From NCBI GenBank assembly GCA_016209795.1, contig JACQVI010000009.1:1-45705 (forward strand): DNA of 45,705 bases. The letters run 5' to 3'. The translations under genes were made by a program, and so were the position numbers. Under the pieces are notes generated by a model. That model saw only the letters and a program-made list of their open reading frames with translations, made no database searches and had not been told where the DNA came from. This document shows positions 31,539 to 40,303 of the stretch, piece by piece. Each line of letters begins with the position of its first letter. Position 1 is the first letter of the stretch. Source of the DNA: Ignavibacteriota bacterium (GTDB lineage Bacteria > Bacteroidota > Ignavibacteria > UBA10030 > SZUA-254).

Positions 31539-31614
31539 GCCTTAGGATTCAAGCTTCAGGTCTCAGGTTTCATGTCTCCAACTGTAATCTGAAATATGTA
31601 ATCCAAGTAAGCAA

Positions 31615-31695
31615 TTATCTGAGCAAAAGCATCTTCTTCACGCTCGTAAAAGTCTCACTTGTTAGAGCGCCATCCTCGTCTATCAACTGAGCGGC
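31615..31695 (-). pseudogene. Relic of a T9SS sorting-domain tail (relic 1)
   Basis: The last 27 codons of a gene like the M6 protease are kept here: AAQLIDEDGALTSETFTSVK and then KMLLLR with its stop. Over 81 bases I count three differences from the 3' end of the gene at 33051. Homology ends abruptly at 31695, just before the stop of the retropepsin-like gene. It is a cut-off copy, not a gene. Confidence 0.75.
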
Positions 31696-31702
31696 ATGTT
31701 CT

Positions 31703-32080
31703 TCACATCAAACGAAGCTTGGTCACACGAGGATCAATAATGACATCGTCAGCCTCGAAGTCCAGTTTCATACGCCATTTTTGAAGCGTCGCCGCACCGA
31801 TAATGATTGGTTCCAACAGATCAGGGATAACCATAAACTCATCAGAGAATCTGTATTCACCAATGTAAAAATCAAGCCTGACCACCTCCGAGGCGTGGAG
31901 AGTCTCTCCATTCTTTGCTGGTCCAAAGTCAAGAGGCTTGGGTAAGCGCAAAACCTGTTCAAGCCGAGATGCGATCTTGGGATTTATGCAAGAGTAAGAT
32001 GTACCACTATCAAAAAGTGCAGTCGTTTCCTCCTTCCCCTTTGTTCCCTCTAGGAGAATATTTTTCTGAATAACAGCCAT
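31703..32080 (-). CDS. Retropepsin-like aspartic protease domain protein
   Basis: The 125-residue protein is a single retroviral-protease-like domain: the flap-side active loop is ALFDSGTSYSCI with D24-S25-G26, and the closing hydrophobic motif is IIGAATLQKW. Such half-size domains act as dimers. Serine replaces the usual threonine of DTG, which is tolerated in pepsin-type enzymes. There is no signal peptide, so it should be cytoplasmic. It lies between two sorting-domain relics and shares no operon with an intact gene. The natural substrate is unknown. Confidence 0.7.
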   Translation of the reverse strand: MAVIQKNILLEGTKGKEETTALFDSGTSYSCINPKIASRLEQVLRLPKPLDFGPAKNGETLHASEVVRLDFYIGEYRFSDEFMVIPDLLEPIIIGAATLQKWRMKLDFEADDVIIDPRVTKLRLM

Positions 32081-32168: not shown

Positions 32169-32212
32169 CTCATAGAGTACTGCAATCAGTAATCAGAAAT
32201 CCAGCCCAGCCA

Positions 32213-32325
32213 TTACCTGAGCAGCAACACCTTCTTCACATCCGTAAACGCTTGCCCTGAGTAAGCGTCTGGAGCGCCGTGGCACTTTGCGCCACTTGGC
32301 GAAGGGTCGCATTGCGCAAAATGTT
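32213..32325 (-). pseudogene. Relic of a T9SS sorting-domain tail (relic 2), interrupted by a GCGCC element
   Basis: The minus strand encodes DAYSGQAFTDVKKVLLLR and a stop, the end of a sorting domain related to that of the M6 protease (SETFTSVKKMLLLR). In front of it lies the GCGCC-rich element at 32274-32317 and then a stop in the same frame, while a neighbouring frame still shows LYFYN, like the VYFYR core of the domain. The bases after the stop (AATCCAGCCCAGCC) also match those after the M6 gene. So it is the remains of a second related gene. Confidence 0.65.
32274..32317. repeat. GCGCC-rich palindromic element
   Basis: GCGCCGTGGC, TTGCGCCAC and TTGCGC units in both orientations resemble the element at 11201-11229 in gcvP. 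It lies within sorting-domain relic 2. Confidence 0.45.
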
Positions 32326-32353: not shown

Positions 32354-32617
32354 CTATTTGTAAACATTACCTCGCCAATCAACGGCTTCGATATATACTC
32401 TTCGGAGCTCAAAATCAAATTCAGCAATGATGCTTAACTTACCAGCTCGGATTCGGAGAAACCCATCCCCTTCCCCTTTGAGTCTCTCTGATGTCAAGAT
32501 TGACATCTTCGCCCTGAAATTTCTTCAACGCAAGCATTAAGAACGAAGTCTTCGTGAATATTGTTTTTGTCGTAAGAACTTAAGAGAGCGAGAAGAAAAA
32601 TCGACTCTCCAGTTCAC
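32354..32617 (-). pseudogene. Frameshifted RelE/ParE-type toxin
   Basis: A GTG at 32617 overlaps the antitoxin stop (GTGA) and opens NWRVDFSSRSLKFLRQ, like RelE-family toxins. After about 18 codons the frame shifts at a run of five A to NIHEDFVLN, then to ALKKFQGEDVNLDI, then to RLKGEGDGFLRIRAG followed by KLSIIAEFDFELRRVYIEAV and DWRGNVYK with a stop. Each shift amounts to one extra base, so start and stop are again in phase over 264 bases. Put together the pieces make one normal RelE-type protein of about 87 residues. As it stands no active toxin can be made. Confidence 0.75.
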
Positions 32618-32811
32618 AGTTGGACGCTTCTGGTCTTTACTGCCTTACGAGTGGGCTTGACGTAACGCTTCTCAATATCTCTGTGTTCATTTTCAGAGAC
32701 AAACGGTAGAACAAGTGCTCTCAAACTCATCAATTCTTGAGCTAAAACTTCCCGTACACCTTCCTTGACGGTATCTTTTAACTCTCTCTTGGAAATAGTG
32801 ATTGTAGCCAT
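32614..32811 (-). CDS. Putative antitoxin of a RelE-type toxin-antitoxin pair
   Basis: The 65-residue protein (ISKRELKDTVKEGVREVLAQ at residues 5-24, then a Lys/Arg-rich tail) is a small helical protein located directly before a RelE-type toxin frame, with which its stop codon overlaps by the GTGA arrangement. That position and size are those of an antitoxin; the family itself I do not recognise with certainty. It is intact although its toxin is frameshifted. It has no signal peptide. The upstream 240 bases are AT-rich near the gene and then contain heptamer repeats. Confidence 0.6.
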   Translation of the reverse strand: MATITISKRELKDTVKEGVREVLAQELMSLRALVLPFVSENEHRDIEKRYVKPTRKAVKTRSVQL

Positions 32812-33011: not shown

Positions 33012-33041
33012 CCGTAATCCGTAATCCGAAATCTGCAATCC
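33012..33041. repeat. GTAATCC-type heptamer repeats downstream of the M6 protease gene
   Basis: CCGTAATCCGTAATCCGAAA and the following TCTGCAATCC are four imperfect heptamers. The same type occurs at 11249-11320 and, weaker, at 32191-32202. The 239 bases between 32812 and 33050 hold nothing else that I can name. Confidence 0.5.
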
Positions 33042-33050
33042 AGCCCAGCC

Positions 33051-36000
33051 TTATCGGAGCAAAAGCATCTTCTTTACGCTCGTAAAAGTCTCACTTGTTA
33101 GAGCGCCATCCCCGTCTATCAACTGAGCGGCGAGACGATAGAAATAGACGCCGCTTGGGAGATTGCCAGCAACGAATTCTACTTCATTCGTCCCAGCGGT
33201 AAACTCTTCCCTGTCAGCCAGTGTTGCAACAACCTGCCCAAGAATGTTCAAGATTTTCAAAGTGACAAAAGCATCCTGAGGCAAACCAAACCGAAGTGTC
33301 GTTCTTGGATTGAATGGGTTAGGATAATTTTGATCCAGAAAATATGCCAGTGGCGTTTTGGACACATTCGTCCCAGACCCTTTAACAAATTGATTTCCTC
33401 CAAGTGATGAACTACTTCCTGTTCCTGAAACAACGACTAGATACTTTGCCAACGCCTCAACAACTTGAGGGTCAATTTGCTCACCACGACTTCTCATTGC
33501 ATCAAAGTTCGTTTGTGCAGCATTCATGTCTCCCATCCCGACAGAAGCAACGATTTTCCTCGTCTGCAAGAAGAACCATAGATCATCACTGGTGGGTAAA
33601 AGCAGGATTTGATCTGCAAGCGCACTCGCTCCCTGAAAATCGCCTTGATCCATCTTCGTTTGGACGCGCAGGGCAGAAGCAAGCGTTCGAACCTGTGGAG
33701 ATTGGGATGTAGCTTCAGCAACCACAAGGAAGACTTCCCACGGTATATCGAGAGCGTTTGGATAGTCTCCGCCCGGACCGACATACAGTGCCAACTGATG
33801 AAGTGCGTCTATTGCATTTTCAGCGTTCTCCTCAACATCCACTCTCAGTTGTTTGAGCCAGTCTACCATCTCTTTGCTGCCCGGTGGGTTGACATCAAGC
33901 GCCTCAACAATTCCTCCAGGCGGTACAATAACTGTCTTTGCCGGTGTCGTCACTGGACTTCCAAGTTGGCTTGTCGTGTCGACTGAACCACAGAACATGG
34001 TCGATCCCGTTCCCCAATAGGTATAGCGGGCTCGCACTGTTGTCGTCGTGGCATTATTGATCAATCGGCAACTGTAGGTATTAGTGCTGTACACATTGTT
34101 CCAACCGCCTCGAGGTTCATAGGTATAATACGATGTACAGCCTGGCGGACACGGAGCAGAAACTTCCGGTGTCCCGGGCATCAGTGCTTGCTCACAGTCG
34201 CAGTGGAAAATCGATGCCAAGTAACCCAGAAAGGCTGTTGCTGAATTACGAACATAGACTTCGCTCAATCCGTGCCGATAAAACGTATTGTAGCCACGTT
34301 TGATCTCGTCTGCACTGAAGGAGACTCGTGAATTGAGTCCAGTGACATCAACCCCACTTCCGACGTTATTCTGCACTCGTGAGCTATCGAGAAAAAGTTT
34401 TCCGGCAGCGTAGACGTAGATGCCGGGACCAATGTTTTCCGCTCCATTATTTTCAATACGAGAATACGTGACAGTTACCTTTGCATTGCCAACGGCGAGT
34501 CCACGTCCACGGTTGTTGACCAATCCGCATTTGTACATCTTCAGTCCCGTAGACGAAGTACTAATTGTTGAGACTGTAACTCCGCTGTAGAGCGTCTGCG
34601 AGACTGTATCACGCTCCATGTAGCTATTCGCTGCAGTGTTCCCAAAGTAAATTCCCGTTTCAGCGTATTTGATGTCGCAGTAGGTGAGCGTGTCGGGTCC
34701 ACCGCCGCTGCAGACGATTCCACCCCAAATGCCCGGTGCCGGTGTTGCACTGCTGGAGGTGAAGGTGACGCGCTGGGTGGAGCTTCCCTTTGCCACGAGT
34801 TTACCATTCACTAACAGGGAATCTCCAGAATCAACCCTCACATTTGTTCCTGGTAAGACAGTAAGAGTGACGCCATTTTGAACAGTAACATTATCAACGA
34901 CTCGAACATCATAACTCCACGTTGTATTCTGTGTGATAGTTCCAGCCGCCATCGTTAACTTAAGGGCGATTGTATCAATGACAGTATACTCTGAATCACT
35001 CGGGCTGGCAGCACGGTGTCGATGTATACCATTAAGTGCAAAATGTGCGGGCTGTATGTTTGTGAACCCTTCTTCTGTTTGGTAATCGTGTCTTGCCTGT
35101 GGTACTGTGAGATCGTTAAAGCTCTGCCTGTTAGTGATAGAATCCTTCGGAAAGAAATCAGTACGAAAAGATATGCTTCTTGAGCTATCTGCTGGGATCA
35201 ACCGTGTTCGATCATAAGGTCCATCAAACCCAGTGGGAGAATTATGATGCCAGATCAACAATATTCCAGGCTGTGTTGCGAAACTATCAGGCGGAGTTGG
35301 GAGGTAGAGATCAAAGCCTTTTCGGAGCCGTGTTTCAAAAATGAAATGCTCATCTCCTGCAATATTGCGATTGATCGGCTCTATGCGATAATATTTTGGA
35401 CTGTTGTAATTGTAGATAACTTTATAGTTTGTTGTATCTCTTCGAAGAGTATCGGGTTTTATCCATCCCATGGATAGTCGATAGTATGGTGAAAGTGAAG
35501 CAGGGCATGCACCCTTACGAAATGGACCATTATTGACGCCTCCAGCCATCAAATCGTAGTTAAAAAGATCAGTTCCGTTACAAGTTCCGCAATATTCATC
35601 GTAGAAGCCTATAAGATGCCCAAACTCGTGTGCAGTCCAGCCGAAGTGCGTAAATGATAGGTTAAGGGTGCTTATTCCAGGACCTTTCCGTTCACTCATT
35701 CTAATGTGTGATCCATAAAACGCATTGGCGGCATTCCAATCCTGCGAAGGTATCACGTTTCCTGCATACAGGATAATGTACTTCAACGTATCTGAGGGTG
35801 TCTCTGTTGGCGACACCCATCCGTACGATACTGCCCTTGCAAATGAGGAATCAAACAGGCGATTGACTACTCCATAGTAGAAGCTAACCGGCTGGGGAAA
35901 CGATATCCACTGCGGCGTGCCGTTCGCATTGGTGGGATTGACAACACGTCCTTGTATCTGAAACTTGCCCAGCGACATCTGATCCCAGTAATCGCGAAAA

Positions 36001-36626
36001 CTGCCAAAGACTGGCTCGTTCTCAGGATGTGTTATATTTTCGTCCGTTGTAACTGTATCAAACCACTCATTATTGCCCGAAAATAACATCTTTTCAAAAT
36101 CTGATTTCAGATATCCGTTAGACCATGTTATCGGTGGAATTGTATCCCTATAATGTGGCTTATCACTGAATTCAACGCAGATGACATTGATCTTGATTGT
36201 GAGCGGTCTCCCCTGCGCATTCCGCTGCGCCTGAAGCTGTTTGTACTTCTGTGCCTGAATCGCTATTCCGGAATCGTTTTGAGCAATGAAGGCGTCGATC
36301 TCTGCCTCGCGTGCTGCACTGCGCTGGAGCTGATACGATGAAGCTGGCGGAGAATCAATCCCAACACGATACGATGTAGGAGCAAATTCTCCACTTGCAT
36401 CGAGCGTTGCGTAATAATACCAACCGTTGGGTCCTTGCACAAAGCGATAGCCGTCTTGCGTCTCCATCCAAGTGCGGTGCTCATCACCCCACGCTTTGGC
36501 TGTGAATGTAACGCTGTTGGGCTGAGACCACGTCGTCAGACCAGTATTGAAGTTGGTAGCACCGGCTTGGAGAGCAATCATAAAGATGCTCATCAATGCT
36601 TTAAAGATGTGGATGTTGTGTTTCAT
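33051..36626 (-). CDS. Exported M6-type metalloprotease with beta-helix region and T9SS sorting domain
   Basis: The 1191-residue protein has a signal peptide (cut near residue 23), a propeptide-like region, and a zinc protease domain with TAHEFGHLIGFYDEY (H333, E334, H337). This fits the M6 / immune-inhibitor A type. Residues about 570-800 look like a right-handed beta-helix (TYCDIKYAETGIYFGN, then SRIENNGAENIGPGIYV). The last 85 residues form a type A sorting domain (DQNYPNPFNPRTTLRFGLP to KKMLLLR), so it should be secreted by the type IX system and fixed to the surface. It starts 22 bases after P1 and has GAGG before its ATG. A broken paralogue of its 5' end lies at 38329. Confidence 0.9.
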   Translation of the reverse strand: MKHNIHIFKALMSIFMIALQAGATNFNTGLTTWSQPNSVTFTAKAWGDEHRTWMETQDGYRFVQGPNGWYYYATLDASGEFAPTSYRVGIDSPPASSYQLQRSAAREAEIDAFIAQNDSGIAIQAQKYKQLQAQRNAQGRPLTIKINVICVEFSDKPHYRDTIPPITWSNGYLKSDFEKMLFSGNNEWFDTVTTDENITHPENEPVFGSFRDYWDQMSLGKFQIQGRVVNPTNANGTPQWISFPQPVSFYYGVVNRLFDSSFARAVSYGWVSPTETPSDTLKYIILYAGNVIPSQDWNAANAFYGSHIRMSERKGPGISTLNLSFTHFGWTAHEFGHLIGFYDEYCGTCNGTDLFNYDLMAGGVNNGPFRKGACPASLSPYYRLSMGWIKPDTLRRDTTNYKVIYNYNSPKYYRIEPINRNIAGDEHFIFETRLRKGFDLYLPTPPDSFATQPGILLIWHHNSPTGFDGPYDRTRLIPADSSRSISFRTDFFPKDSITNRQSFNDLTVPQARHDYQTEEGFTNIQPAHFALNGIHRHRAASPSDSEYTVIDTIALKLTMAAGTITQNTTWSYDVRVVDNVTVQNGVTLTVLPGTNVRVDSGDSLLVNGKLVAKGSSTQRVTFTSSSATPAPGIWGGIVCSGGGPDTLTYCDIKYAETGIYFGNTAANSYMERDTVSQTLYSGVTVSTISTSSTGLKMYKCGLVNNRGRGLAVGNAKVTVTYSRIENNGAENIGPGIYVYAAGKLFLDSSRVQNNVGSGVDVTGLNSRVSFSADEIKRGYNTFYRHGLSEVYVRNSATAFLGYLASIFHCDCEQALMPGTPEVSAPCPPGCTSYYTYEPRGGWNNVYSTNTYSCRLINNATTTTVRARYTYWGTGSTMFCGSVDTTSQLGSPVTTPAKTVIVPPGGIVEALDVNPPGSKEMVDWLKQLRVDVEENAENAIDALHQLALYVGPGGDYPNALDIPWEVFLVVAEATSQSPQVRTLASALRVQTKMDQGDFQGASALADQILLLPTSDDLWFFLQTRKIVASVGMGDMNAAQTNFDAMRSRGEQIDPQVVEALAKYLVVVSGTGSSSSLGGNQFVKGSGTNVSKTPLAYFLDQNYPNPFNPRTTLRFGLPQDAFVTLKILNILGQVVATLADREEFTAGTNEVEFVAGNLPSGVYFYRLAAQLIDGDGALTSETFTSVKKMLLLR

Positions 36627-36648
36627 GGTAATCCTCTCTTTAGAATTG

Positions 36649-38286
36649 TTATTTGAGAATGGTGAGTTTACGACTTAAAATTGAATTTTTAGTTTCCAAT
36701 TTATACAAGTAAACCCCACTGGGAATACGTAAGGCATTAAAGCTAACTGAGTGTTTCCCTGGCATCTTAGTATCGTTCACGAGCGTCTGAATTTGCTGGC
36801 CAAGCATATTGTAAACATTAAGTTTGACCCAGCTTTCCGAGGGAATATCAAATTGTATTATTGTTGTTGGGTTGAAGGGGTTGGGGTAGTTTTGATACAG
36901 GTAAAGTTGTTGTGGTATCTCCAATACCAGATTCTCGATTGATGTAATGACCTCACCTAAATTTCCATTCTTGCTTACTTGCAGCGCACGTATTGAAAAA
37001 TCAAACTGATGAAAACCTACAACGATAGCACCTCCTCTGCAATCTGTACTGGCTCTTGCATCTGAAAAAACCGGAACATTCAGCGTAACATCTGCTGTAT
37101 CCCAGAGGCGTACCCCTGCCGTATCGATACGCTGAGCTACTATTGAATTTCTATATCTACTATCTGTACTAATGTAGATTTTGGAATCTTCTATGCTCGT
37201 AAAGACTGCCCAAGTAGCCATGGATGTACTATCTACTGTGCTTACCTGAATTGCACCGTCTTGAAAGACAGATTCACCACTCTCCCTTACTCTTTGTGTA
37301 AATGTCCTCATTATGTTCGGTCTGGCCCTTTTTCCCCATGCAATCGTTGCTCCCCCATCTTGATTCGCTTCGATAACAACCCAGGGTGGATTTAGCCCAG
37401 TACTTTGCAAGCTGTCCTCAAGAATAATACCATCATTTCCCCAGAGTATTACACCACTTGAATCAACTCGTTGGCAAGTCGCTCTCCAGTAAGGATCACC
37501 GTTGTTGTAGTCAAGATACTTCATTCCTGCAATGACAAGACCACTATAACCATCTGGAGCAATTCTTTGTATACCAATTTGATCTTGCTGAACACCACTC
37601 GGTCCCCATAATCCATTTCCCAAGGCATCAAATCTTTGGATTCTTGAAGCTCCAAAAATCATTATTACTCCCTTTTGCCCGTCACTTATCATCAATGGTC
37701 TTTCTGGCGAATTCCAGACATATCTCCCACTATCTCCCCACAGTCGTGTGCCTAAGCTGTCAATTCTATTTATTCTTAAATCCCCCATCGTATCCACCCA
37801 TGCAACAATACATCCGCCTTCACCATCAGGCACTATTGCCTGTTGATCCTGATTTGTCTCGGATATCGAGACACGCACACCTGTCGCTCCCCAAAGCAAG
37901 TTGCCACTGCTGTCAACTCTCTGTACTCTAATCCTGAATGTTCCACCAATTTGAGCTATGGAATCATCTGAGTATGCAATCAACACACCTCCTCTTCCAT
38001 CCTCCGTGATCTTAGCAAACCATTGCTCCGGCAGTTCACCGAGAATACGGATACTCGTTCCCCATGGCTTGTAGCCGTATCGATCAAGTCGCTCCAAAAC
38101 TAACCTGCGGGGATAACCGAGGTTTTGTTCATAAGTGATGTAACAACCCCCGGCACTGTCACTAGCGATCTCAGGTAAGAGACCGTAGCCGACGATGAGA
38201 TTATTCGTGGGATCGGTGGACCATTGGGCGTAAGAGCAGTATGTGAGTACAGCAGTAGTTAGTATGGAGTAGGTTATCCTGCGCAT
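36649..38286 (-). CDS. P1: exported repeat protein with T9SS sorting domain
   Basis: The 545-residue protein has a signal peptide (TAVLTYCSYAQ), a body of imperfect repeats of the form QR-[VI]-D-[ST]-x-G-x-x-LWG (RVDSSGNLLWG, RIDSLGTRLWG, RFDALGNGLWG, RVDSSGVILWG, RIDTAGVRLWD), and a type A sorting domain (YQNYPNPFNPTTIIQFDIP to SRKLTILK). The repeats suggest a beta-propeller. The ATG at 38286 is preferred over a TTG at 38292. P1 is the first gene of a P-M6 pair. Its first 150 residues are almost the same as those of P2 and P3, while its C-terminal half is closer to P3. No reaction is suggested; adhesion or surface binding is inferred. Confidence 0.85.
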   Translation of the reverse strand: MRRITYSILTTAVLTYCSYAQWSTDPTNNLIVGYGLLPEIASDSAGGCYITYEQNLGYPRRLVLERLDRYGYKPWGTSIRILGELPEQWFAKITEDGRGGVLIAYSDDSIAQIGGTFRIRVQRVDSSGNLLWGATGVRVSISETNQDQQAIVPDGEGGCIVAWVDTMGDLRINRIDSLGTRLWGDSGRYVWNSPERPLMISDGQKGVIMIFGASRIQRFDALGNGLWGPSGVQQDQIGIQRIAPDGYSGLVIAGMKYLDYNNGDPYWRATCQRVDSSGVILWGNDGIILEDSLQSTGLNPPWVVIEANQDGGATIAWGKRARPNIMRTFTQRVRESGESVFQDGAIQVSTVDSTSMATWAVFTSIEDSKIYISTDSRYRNSIVAQRIDTAGVRLWDTADVTLNVPVFSDARASTDCRGGAIVVGFHQFDFSIRALQVSKNGNLGEVITSIENLVLEIPQQLYLYQNYPNPFNPTTIIQFDIPSESWVKLNVYNMLGQQIQTLVNDTKMPGKHSVSFNALRIPSGVYLYKLETKNSILSRKLTILK

Positions 38287-38328
38287 GTTCAATTCAGTCT
38301 GATCCTTATGGGTGAACTTATCAAATTG

Positions 38329-38547
38329 TCAAGACAAAATCAACCCGGTACTACTCACCGCAAATTCTCCTGTCGCATCAAGTGTTGCATAGTAATAATA
38401 TTCATCGCCCCACGCTTTGGCAGTGAATGTGACGCTATTCGGCTGTGACCACGTTGTCAAGCCTGTATTGAAATTAGTTGCCTGGGCTTGCGTGACGACC
38501 ATAAGCAGGACTGCCAGAACCACGAAGATTTGAAGATTGTGTTTCAT
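38329..38547 (-). pseudogene. Truncated copy of the M6 protease 5' end
   Basis: The frame begins MKHNLQIF and continues ATNFNTGLTTWSQPNSVTFT, as in the M6 protease at 33051. Residues 50-69 of the intact protein are missing in frame, then YYATLD.ASGEF-like residues follow, and homology stops at residue 83. The protease domain, beta-helix and sorting domain are all gone. It lies 22 bases after P2, the same spacing as between P1 and the intact M6 gene, which shows that the pair was duplicated as a unit. A longer frame from 38742 is chance read-through. Confidence 0.8.
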
Positions 38548-38569
38548 AGTACCCTCCATAAAGTTAATG

Positions 38570-40144
38570 TTATTTGAGAACTGTGAGTTTACGGACAAAA
38601 AATGAATTTTCAGTTTGTAACCTGTACCAATACACACCGTTAGGTATTCCAGAAGCATCAAAGGTAGCTTGATAAGTACCCGGTGCTCTGACTTCGTCCA
38701 CAATATTTCGCAGGTGTTCACCAAGTACATTGAACACGTCAAGCTTTACCCAACTTTGATGTGGAATATCAAACTGTATTGTTGTTGTCGGGTTAACTGG
38801 GTTTGGATAATTTTGATAAAGGAAAAATTCGTATGGTACACGGTTCGTTGCATCATCTACTGCTGTGATCACTTCGCCAAGATTTCCATATTTACTAACT
38901 TGCTGTGCTCTTACTGTAAAGTCTGTTTCACGCCACCCCACTAGAATACAACCGCCATTTGCATCTGAAGTTAACTTTAAGCCACCTAATGATATAAGAC
39001 AAAGTGCGATATCGTTTGTATCCCATTGTGCTAATCCACTTGTATCAAGTCTTTGAGCATAGATACCCGGTGGTGTTCGATTATCAGTCCATACAAATAC
39101 CGCTGTCGCAGAATCAGAGGGTATTAGACCAGCAATACTTTTCATTGAAACAATACTGCGCAAAGGTATCCCACCATACTCAAACACCGTGCTTCCATCG
39201 TTTCTGACAATCTGCGTGCGGAGATCCCATACACCATTACCCGTGTTTTGAGGCCAGGTCAGCATTGAATAACAGTTTTGTAATGCAAAATCCATCAAGA
39301 TAAAACTATTTGTTCTCAAAGTATCAATCGTCACGCCTAAACTATCCCAGAGTAGCGTCCCTGTAGTATCCACTTTCTGGTGATTCAGCGTGAAAACCTG
39401 TTGCCCATTTTCAAAACCGAGGTATTTACCGCCAAACAGATATACGTAAGCGCTGCCATCAGTCTTTATTATTCTTGCACCTGTCGGTACAGTTACACCC
39501 GAAATTGGCCAATGCATATTTCCGTTTTGACCAAAATGCTGTAATCTTCCAATTCCAAAGACAGTATAACAACCACCTTTGCCATCACTTGTCATGGGTG
39601 GTCTCTCTGCTGAATTCCAAACGTATTTTCCACTGTCTCTCCACACTCTTGTTCCAGTACTATCAATTCTATTAATGCGAAGATCTCTGTCCTCATCGAC
39701 CCATGCTACGATGCAGCCACCTCTGCCGTCAGCTACAATCGCCTGTCGATCTTGGTTTGTCTCAGATAATGATATGCGCACCCCTGTTGATCCCCACAGC
39801 ACATTCCCGCTGCTATCCACTCGCTGTACACGTATTCTCCCTATTCCACCAATTTGAGCTATGGAATCGTCTGAGTATGAAATCAGAACCCCTCCTCTTC
39901 CATCCTCCGTGATCTTCGCAAACCATTGCTCTGGCAGTTCACCACGTATGCGTACAGGCTGAGACCATACTTTGTAACCGTAACGGTTCAATCGCTCCAA
40001 AACTAATCTGCGGGGGTAACCGAGGTTCTGCTCGTAGGTGATATAACAACCTCCAGCACCATCACTGGCAAGCTCGGGCAAAAGCCCATAGCCAACGATG
40101 AGGTTATTGGATGGATCGGTAGACCATTGGGCATAGCTCTGCAC
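38570..40144 (-). CDS. P2: repeat protein with T9SS sorting domain, start region damaged
   Basis: The 524-residue frame has the same repeats as P1 and P3 (RVDSSGNVLWG, RIDSTGTRVWR, KVDTTGTLLWD, RLDTSGLAQWD) and ends in a sorting domain (YQNYPNPVNPTTTIQFDIP; Val replaces the Phe of PNPFNP). The only usable start is a GTG at 40144. The bases before it still encode a signal peptide (ISLLVFLAFLPVQSYAQ) in the same frame, but no ATG, GTG or TTG precedes it before a TAG at 40205-40207. The counterpart of the P3 start is a GTG at 40202, out of phase. P2 is probably a decaying copy that can no longer be exported. Confidence 0.7.
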   Translation of the reverse strand: MQSYAQWSTDPSNNLIVGYGLLPELASDGAGGCYITYEQNLGYPRRLVLERLNRYGYKVWSQPVRIRGELPEQWFAKITEDGRGGVLISYSDDSIAQIGGIGRIRVQRVDSSGNVLWGSTGVRISLSETNQDRQAIVADGRGGCIVAWVDEDRDLRINRIDSTGTRVWRDSGKYVWNSAERPPMTSDGKGGCYTVFGIGRLQHFGQNGNMHWPISGVTVPTGARIIKTDGSAYVYLFGGKYLGFENGQQVFTLNHQKVDTTGTLLWDSLGVTIDTLRTNSFILMDFALQNCYSMLTWPQNTGNGVWDLRTQIVRNDGSTVFEYGGIPLRSIVSMKSIAGLIPSDSATAVFVWTDNRTPPGIYAQRLDTSGLAQWDTNDIALCLISLGGLKLTSDANGGCILVGWRETDFTVRAQQVSKYGNLGEVITAVDDATNRVPYEFFLYQNYPNPVNPTTTIQFDIPHQSWVKLDVFNVLGEHLRNIVDEVRAPGTYQATFDASGIPNGVYWYRLQTENSFFVRKLTVLK

Positions 40145-40303
40145 TGGCAGGAAAGCTAAAAAGACAAGAAGCGATATCGTGGCTAATCTAAACGTACGGC
40201 ACCTCTAATCCTCTTGCGAGGACTGATGACACAGTCTACAAAATTTTTATTAGAAGGTCAAGCATTTTCACAATTTTTTTCATTACCCAATACAAATAAA
40301 CAA

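Follow-up and report, generated by a model that had tools for sequence, protein, structure and literature searches.

In the pilin (pilS) and vls systems, silent donor cassettes feed an expressed copy. For type IX cargo and surface proteins of Porphyromonas gingivalis (Kgp, RagAB and FimCDE), a published account describes how alleles are exchanged and domains rearranged (PMC5266723). This exchange of type IX cargo alleles in P. gingivalis is the closest precedent, by analogy, for the locus described here, which carries genes for a predicted propeller protein, P, and an M6 family protease, M6, and lies within a window of 45,705 nt (the whole stretch of DNA analysed) from a draft Ignavibacteriota genome of 263 contigs. 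In both cases secreted or surface proteins appear to be diversified by recombination, leaving a mosaic that departs from the genome tree, and fimC, in the same account, combines a conserved 5' part with a divergent 3' part, as P does (PMC5266723). The protein families of P. gingivalis are different ones, however, and the exchange described for them takes place within one species, whereas in the window and its relatives it would run between genera, the P and M6 genes form tandem arrays and the partner protease has been lost repeatedly.

The array lies on the minus strand in the order P3, P2, M6 fragment, P1, M6 (Table 1). The preliminary description had recognised two units, P1 with M6 and P2 with an M6 remnant, and had proposed on the strength of their equal gaps and the likeness of the bases around them that the pair was duplicated as a unit and that the second copy had decayed; P3 is a third copy beyond these two. 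The gap lengths, the likeness around both gaps and the reduction of the second protease to 219 nt (stop included) were all reproduced, and 19 internal codons were found to be missing from this fragment. Equal gap length was rejected as the main proof of duplication, given that the two can be aligned only if 3-nt indels offset each other and that the P-M6 spacing in relatives ranges from a short overlap to about 20 nt. The case for duplication rests on the alignment of the two units, which runs unbroken from the signal peptide of P across the rest of that gene and the gap into M6, where it takes in the first ~85 codons; an independent repeat search returned 82% over 89 nt at the beginning of M6 and, in P, 74% over 300 nt.

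Table 1 Features of the P-M6 array in the window
Feature	Coordinates	Strand	Description
P3	40353-41993	minus	third tandem propeller-gene copy, 546 aa, type IX tail; M6 gene absent 3'
Terminator-like hairpin after P3	40304-40329	minus	11-pair stem and T run
Promoter-like site upstream of P2	40233-40261	minus	TTGACC-17-TAGACT
P2	38570-40144	minus	predicted propeller gene, frame open to at least 40189; open body, type IX tail
P2-to-M6-fragment gap	38548-38569	minus	22 nt
M6 fragment	38329-38547	minus	signal peptide and part of N-terminal domain, 72 codons; catalytic domain absent
P1 upstream region	38293-38345	minus	likeness to P2 upstream starts ~38337 (ATTTTG), directly after M6 fragment
P1	36649-38292	minus	predicted propeller gene, 547 aa, type IX tail
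P1-to-M6 gap	36627-36648	minus	22 nt
M6	33051-36626	minus	1191 aa: N-terminal domain, HEFGHLIGFYDEY site, beta-helix region, type IX tail

The absence of a good start in P2 was likewise borne out: no in-frame ATG, GTG or TTG precedes the sequence of its signal peptide, the first in-frame GTG (40142-40144) falls at the end of that peptide, and another GTG, at 40200-40202, lies in a different frame. A stretch resembling the promoter-like site of P2 was seen by eye upstream of P3 and of the P gene of the relative G013; promoter-like sites number 10 against 11.8 expected, and the P2 site alone is not significant. Nor is the count of terminator-like sites in the region (4 against 3.6 in shuffles). 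At the other end of the array, the M6 3' end with ~30 nt past the stop (33021-33131) recurs at 31584-31695 (100/112 nt, 89%) and more weakly at 32191-32248 (45/58). The open reading frames between these copies, judged by eye, are a toxin-antitoxin-like pair (32354-32811) and an aspartyl-protease-like frame (31703-32080), and the repeats and small frames together have a cassette-like layout with the end of a type IX gene as the repeat.

Matches to the C-terminal sorting domain (PF18962 and TIGR04183) were above cut-off in P1, P2, P3 and M6. A signal peptide was recognised by eye in P1, P3 and M6, and P2 encodes one without a start codon. No family of Pfam or NCBIfam reached its cut-off over the rest of P. 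In a model of P1 based on six sequences (pLDDT 73, pTM 0.68), residues ~28-449 form a beta-propeller in which eight strand groups were counted by eye, and against solved folds it matches propellers of seven to nine blades at Z 23-28, among them the eight-bladed designs Tako8/Ika8 (Z 25-26), along with BamB (Z 23-25) and Rsa4 (Z 28). The prediction from this model is that P folds into an eight-bladed beta-propeller, to which a type IX sorting tail is attached. The predicted fold is common to P and to the eight-bladed propellers BamB and the designed Tako8/Ika8 at an identity of only about 10%; unlike these, P carries a fused type IX tail, and likeness of fold assigns it no function.

The M6 protein matches PF05547 with 39.5 bits (cut-off 22) and TIGR03296 with 66.6 bits, below the cut-off of 110.8. 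The HExxHxxGxxD zinc site is present in the full gene as HEFGHLIGFYD and is absent from the fragment. The catalytic motif and the Pfam match are thus common to the window M6 and the M6 family metallopeptidases of PF05547, to which the window protein adds a beta-helix region, a type IX tail and a propeller gene as partner, and its N-terminal domain, in contrast to the family, here survives alone in several copies. A PDB sequence search with M6 and the P profile matched no solved structure, and a model of the N-terminal 560 residues of M6 (two sequences, pLDDT 30) gave no usable fold.

To examine the pair in relatives, P was searched for in 150 relatives, 395 genomes of the phylum, 391 of the class and a named collection, and the neighbours of 26 P loci were read. 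The matches in the named collection were PNNN01000061 (a Chlorobiaceae MAG, to which G013 corresponds), Ignavibacteriaceae MAG43, Bacteroidetes UR.bin72 and an Ignavibacteriales MAG. Directly downstream of P, on the same strand, an M6-related gene was found at 17 of the 26 loci: P1 and P2 of the window, five loci of G410, two of G635, and one each in G003, G013, G009, G068, G246 (C86), G497 (C69), G623 and G668. Seven loci have no M6 gene after P, namely P3, MAG43, in which the next gene is a different type IX gene, G246 C35, in which it is another P, and the distant P loci G611, G358, G023 and G028; the remaining two are cut by contig ends. Because 17 of 26 P loci precede a same-strand M6-related gene, the P-M6 pairing is real and conserved in order. 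The preliminary description had named two observations that would speak against it, P and M6 genes that are never neighbours in relatives and an intergenic likeness at chance level; on testing, the genes were found side by side in relatives and the units to align across both gaps. Its view of P and M6 as paired genes for type IX cargo, a status read from their sequences, is thereby upheld as far as a pair kept in order among relatives is concerned, as is its suggestion that the copy number changes, with three P genes in the window genome and five P loci in G410. No report of the pair was found in the PMC literature searched.

The P copies of the window do not share one history along their length. 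At fourfold sites, P1 and P3 differ at 4/19 positions in codons 110-165 and at 49/68 after codon 165, and P2 and P3 at 5/22 in codons 1-60 and 35/53 after codon 165. When G003 and G013 are the partners compared, silent divergence does not dip in the 5' part, and the P 5' region is therefore not simply slow. Protein trees were built from twelve rows (P1, P2, P3, G003, G013, G410a, b1, c and d, MAG43 and two of G635), leaving out G009, G068, G246, G497, G623, G668 and others, as well as G410b2, whose 5' part has a frame break. Over residues 23-160 the three window copies group together (93/95) and P3 with G003 is rejected (AU p 0.003), while over residues 165-445 P3 groups with G003, a P of another genus (98/100), and the three window copies together are rejected (AU p 0.012). 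For MAG43, P groups with G410a (91/89) over the first part and with G410b1 (100/100) over the body, where a grouping with G410a is rejected (AU p 0.0002). In twelve tests of triplets for a break, permutation p lay at 0.0005-0.006, uncorrected for the number of tests. Between window copies pN/pS is 0.52-0.75 in the body and 0.08-0.16 in the N-terminal part, rough values given silent sites near saturation, and the body alignments fall to 25-45% identity in places. These comparisons show P, at the level of sequence, to be a recombination mosaic, its first ~140 residues apparently homogenised within the genome and the rest apparently exchanged between diverged alleles, and the P bodies read as old alleles common to several genera. 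A recent common unit is accordingly confined to the P 5' part and the M6 5' end and does not take in the P bodies, which are old cross-genus alleles.

The most direct view of such an exchange comes from G410, a single-contig genome. Its locus b consists of two tandem units, each a P gene followed by a small gene (160 and 156 aa) in which the N-terminal ~97 residues of M6 are fused to a type IX tail. Over their first ~700 nt the two units, b1 and b2, scarcely differ. The next ~1,030 nt contain not one identical run of 25 nt, and from about codon 32 of the M6 part identity returns for 374 nt. No near-identical donor of the replaced b2 block was found in the G410 genome (best 72%), and its source is therefore outside or gone. 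The tail of the small genes and that of the neighbouring 1075-aa gene agree at 193/200 nt (L132 6091-8668 and 10284-13511), a likeness that would fit type IX tails serving as sites of recombination. Locus d holds a stand-alone M6 N-terminal gene of 317 aa; its P is interrupted between body and tail by a 319-aa open reading frame (L176 4138-7127).

We then compared the fate of M6 next to P across the 17 linked genes. HExxH is kept in nine (the window, G003, G013, G009, G410c, G246, G497, G668 and G623, the last counted as kept with its third ligand unclear) and lost in two that are also frame-broken (G410a and G635 C70); the catalytic domain is absent from four (the window fragment and G410b1, b2 and d), and two are unreadable (G635 C104 and G068). 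In G009 the catalytic part lies on a different contig from the P gene. Among M6 N-terminal domains of the 391 class genomes, open reading frames below 400 aa were found in 7/15 linked and 2/57 other cases (Fisher p 0.0001), a comparison from which one of 73 rows was dropped (G635 C104, contig end). The seven short linked genes come from only four genomes and four of them from G410, so the loss events are fewer than the counts. Among the 57 rows counted as unlinked, G635 C105 may stand next to a P gene that lies before it and is cut by the contig end, and of the two short ones G086 runs to a contig end and G508 is frame-broken. M6 next to P is thus shown, on these gene sequences, often to lose its catalytic part while apparently keeping its first ~90 codons, and the recurrence of this loss in other genomes tells against reading the second window unit as simply a decayed duplicate. 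Elsewhere, in UR.bin72 (L099 9872-10174), a contig end repeats, in the frame of M6, sequence of an upstream open reading frame; the assembly is probably chimeric there.

The window fragment itself has a long coding history. Over the 40 mature codons that can be compared with M6, pS is 0.745 and pN 0.037; 38/40 amino acids are kept, and codons 24-49 are the same at 26/26. In a neutral simulation with 0.1 substitutions per site a mean of 32/40 was kept, and 38 was never reached in 1000 runs. Since 38/40 amino acids are kept although the silent sites are saturated, selection must have acted on the encoded protein throughout almost the whole history of the fragment. Either the rest of the gene was lost recently, or the fragment is a recent arrival, or its product may still be in use, full function being disfavoured by the 19 missing codons. 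There is no reduced silent divergence between M6 and the fragment and hence no recent conversion is seen in the M6 arm of the window. Truncation at birth by a partial tandem duplication, followed by neutral drift, is contradicted by the 38/40 amino acids kept. The geometry does fit a partial tandem duplication, the P1-upstream likeness starting right after the fragment, and such an event may be kept only as a late one or as one that joined diverged units.

The explanation that we favour, and hold to be probable, is an array of two-gene P-M6 units in which a mosaic surface propeller changes by tandem copying and by recombination between conserved flanks, with M6 as its partner. Both proteins would be exported by the type IX system. 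The units appear to multiply in tandem, as the copies in the sequence themselves display, and recombination would run between the P 5' end on one side and the type IX tail and M6 5' end on the other, bringing in new propeller bodies, with the M6 5' end as the far flank that would travel with each P copy. P2 and the M6 fragment would together be one of these units, which broke recently and lies ahead of the intact P1-M6. The surface propeller may be under diversifying pressure as a binding or recognition protein, and M6 may act on the propeller or on the propeller's target. Plain duplication and decay, in which a full pair was copied and the P2 copy lost its start and most of its protease on the way to disappearing, would account for the joint loss of the P2 start and the M6 catalytic part, for a fragment that spent most of its history in a coding gene, as its saturated silent sites and conserved mature part indicate, and for the decaying pairs found elsewhere in G068 (stops in both P and M6) and G009. 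We consider it unlikely as the whole account, for it leaves unexplained the P3 body shared with another genus, the conserved 5' tract and the exchange between G410b1 and b2.

Two further readings give the broken unit a use. The stub could be a working product, a lone M6 N-terminal domain, probably a prodomain, that binds or inhibits intact M6, or binds P. The recurrence of stand-alone N-terminal domains in G410b1, b2 and d and the conservation of the mature part in the window beyond the neutral mean are in keeping with this, and for malaria SUB1 a stand-alone propeptide is reported to act as an inhibitor (PMC6993865). The window stub, however, is without its 19 mid-domain codons and its tail, its gene follows a P2 that itself has no start, and no M6 case was found in the literature searched; we consider a working stub very unlikely. 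Silent donor cassettes feeding an expressed P1, with P2 as the sequence store and the M6 stub as the 3' homology arm, would suit the open body of P2 without a start, the break in frame close to the G410b2 5' end and the conserved flanks around an exchanged centre in G410b1 and b2. Donor copies of pilS and vls are without expression signals, and P2 is without a start, yet it keeps a promoter-like site; tracts identical to a same-genome donor, as in those systems, are found neither for the G410b2 block nor for the bodies of P1, P2 and P3, which are saturated at silent sites with no recently shared tract. With reduced silent divergence confined to the P 5' end, we regard silent cassettes as highly improbable. 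It is also conceivable, if doubtful, that P-M6 arrays diversify the surface propeller through arms at the P start and the M6 start and that some of the stubs are secreted inhibitors or adaptors of intact M6. If the arrays are indeed a diversification system, each P copy would always carry a protease-gene stub.

Type IX cargo is abundant in the window genome, where the P query has 169 matches, nearly all through the type IX tail, and diversification of cargo genes is little described outside a few pathogens. Here a propeller-protease pair of environmental relatives appears to change by tandem copying and allele exchange, its protease being repeatedly cut to the N-terminal domain. This raises two testable questions: what the target of the variable propeller may be, and whether the cut-down protease domains have any role.
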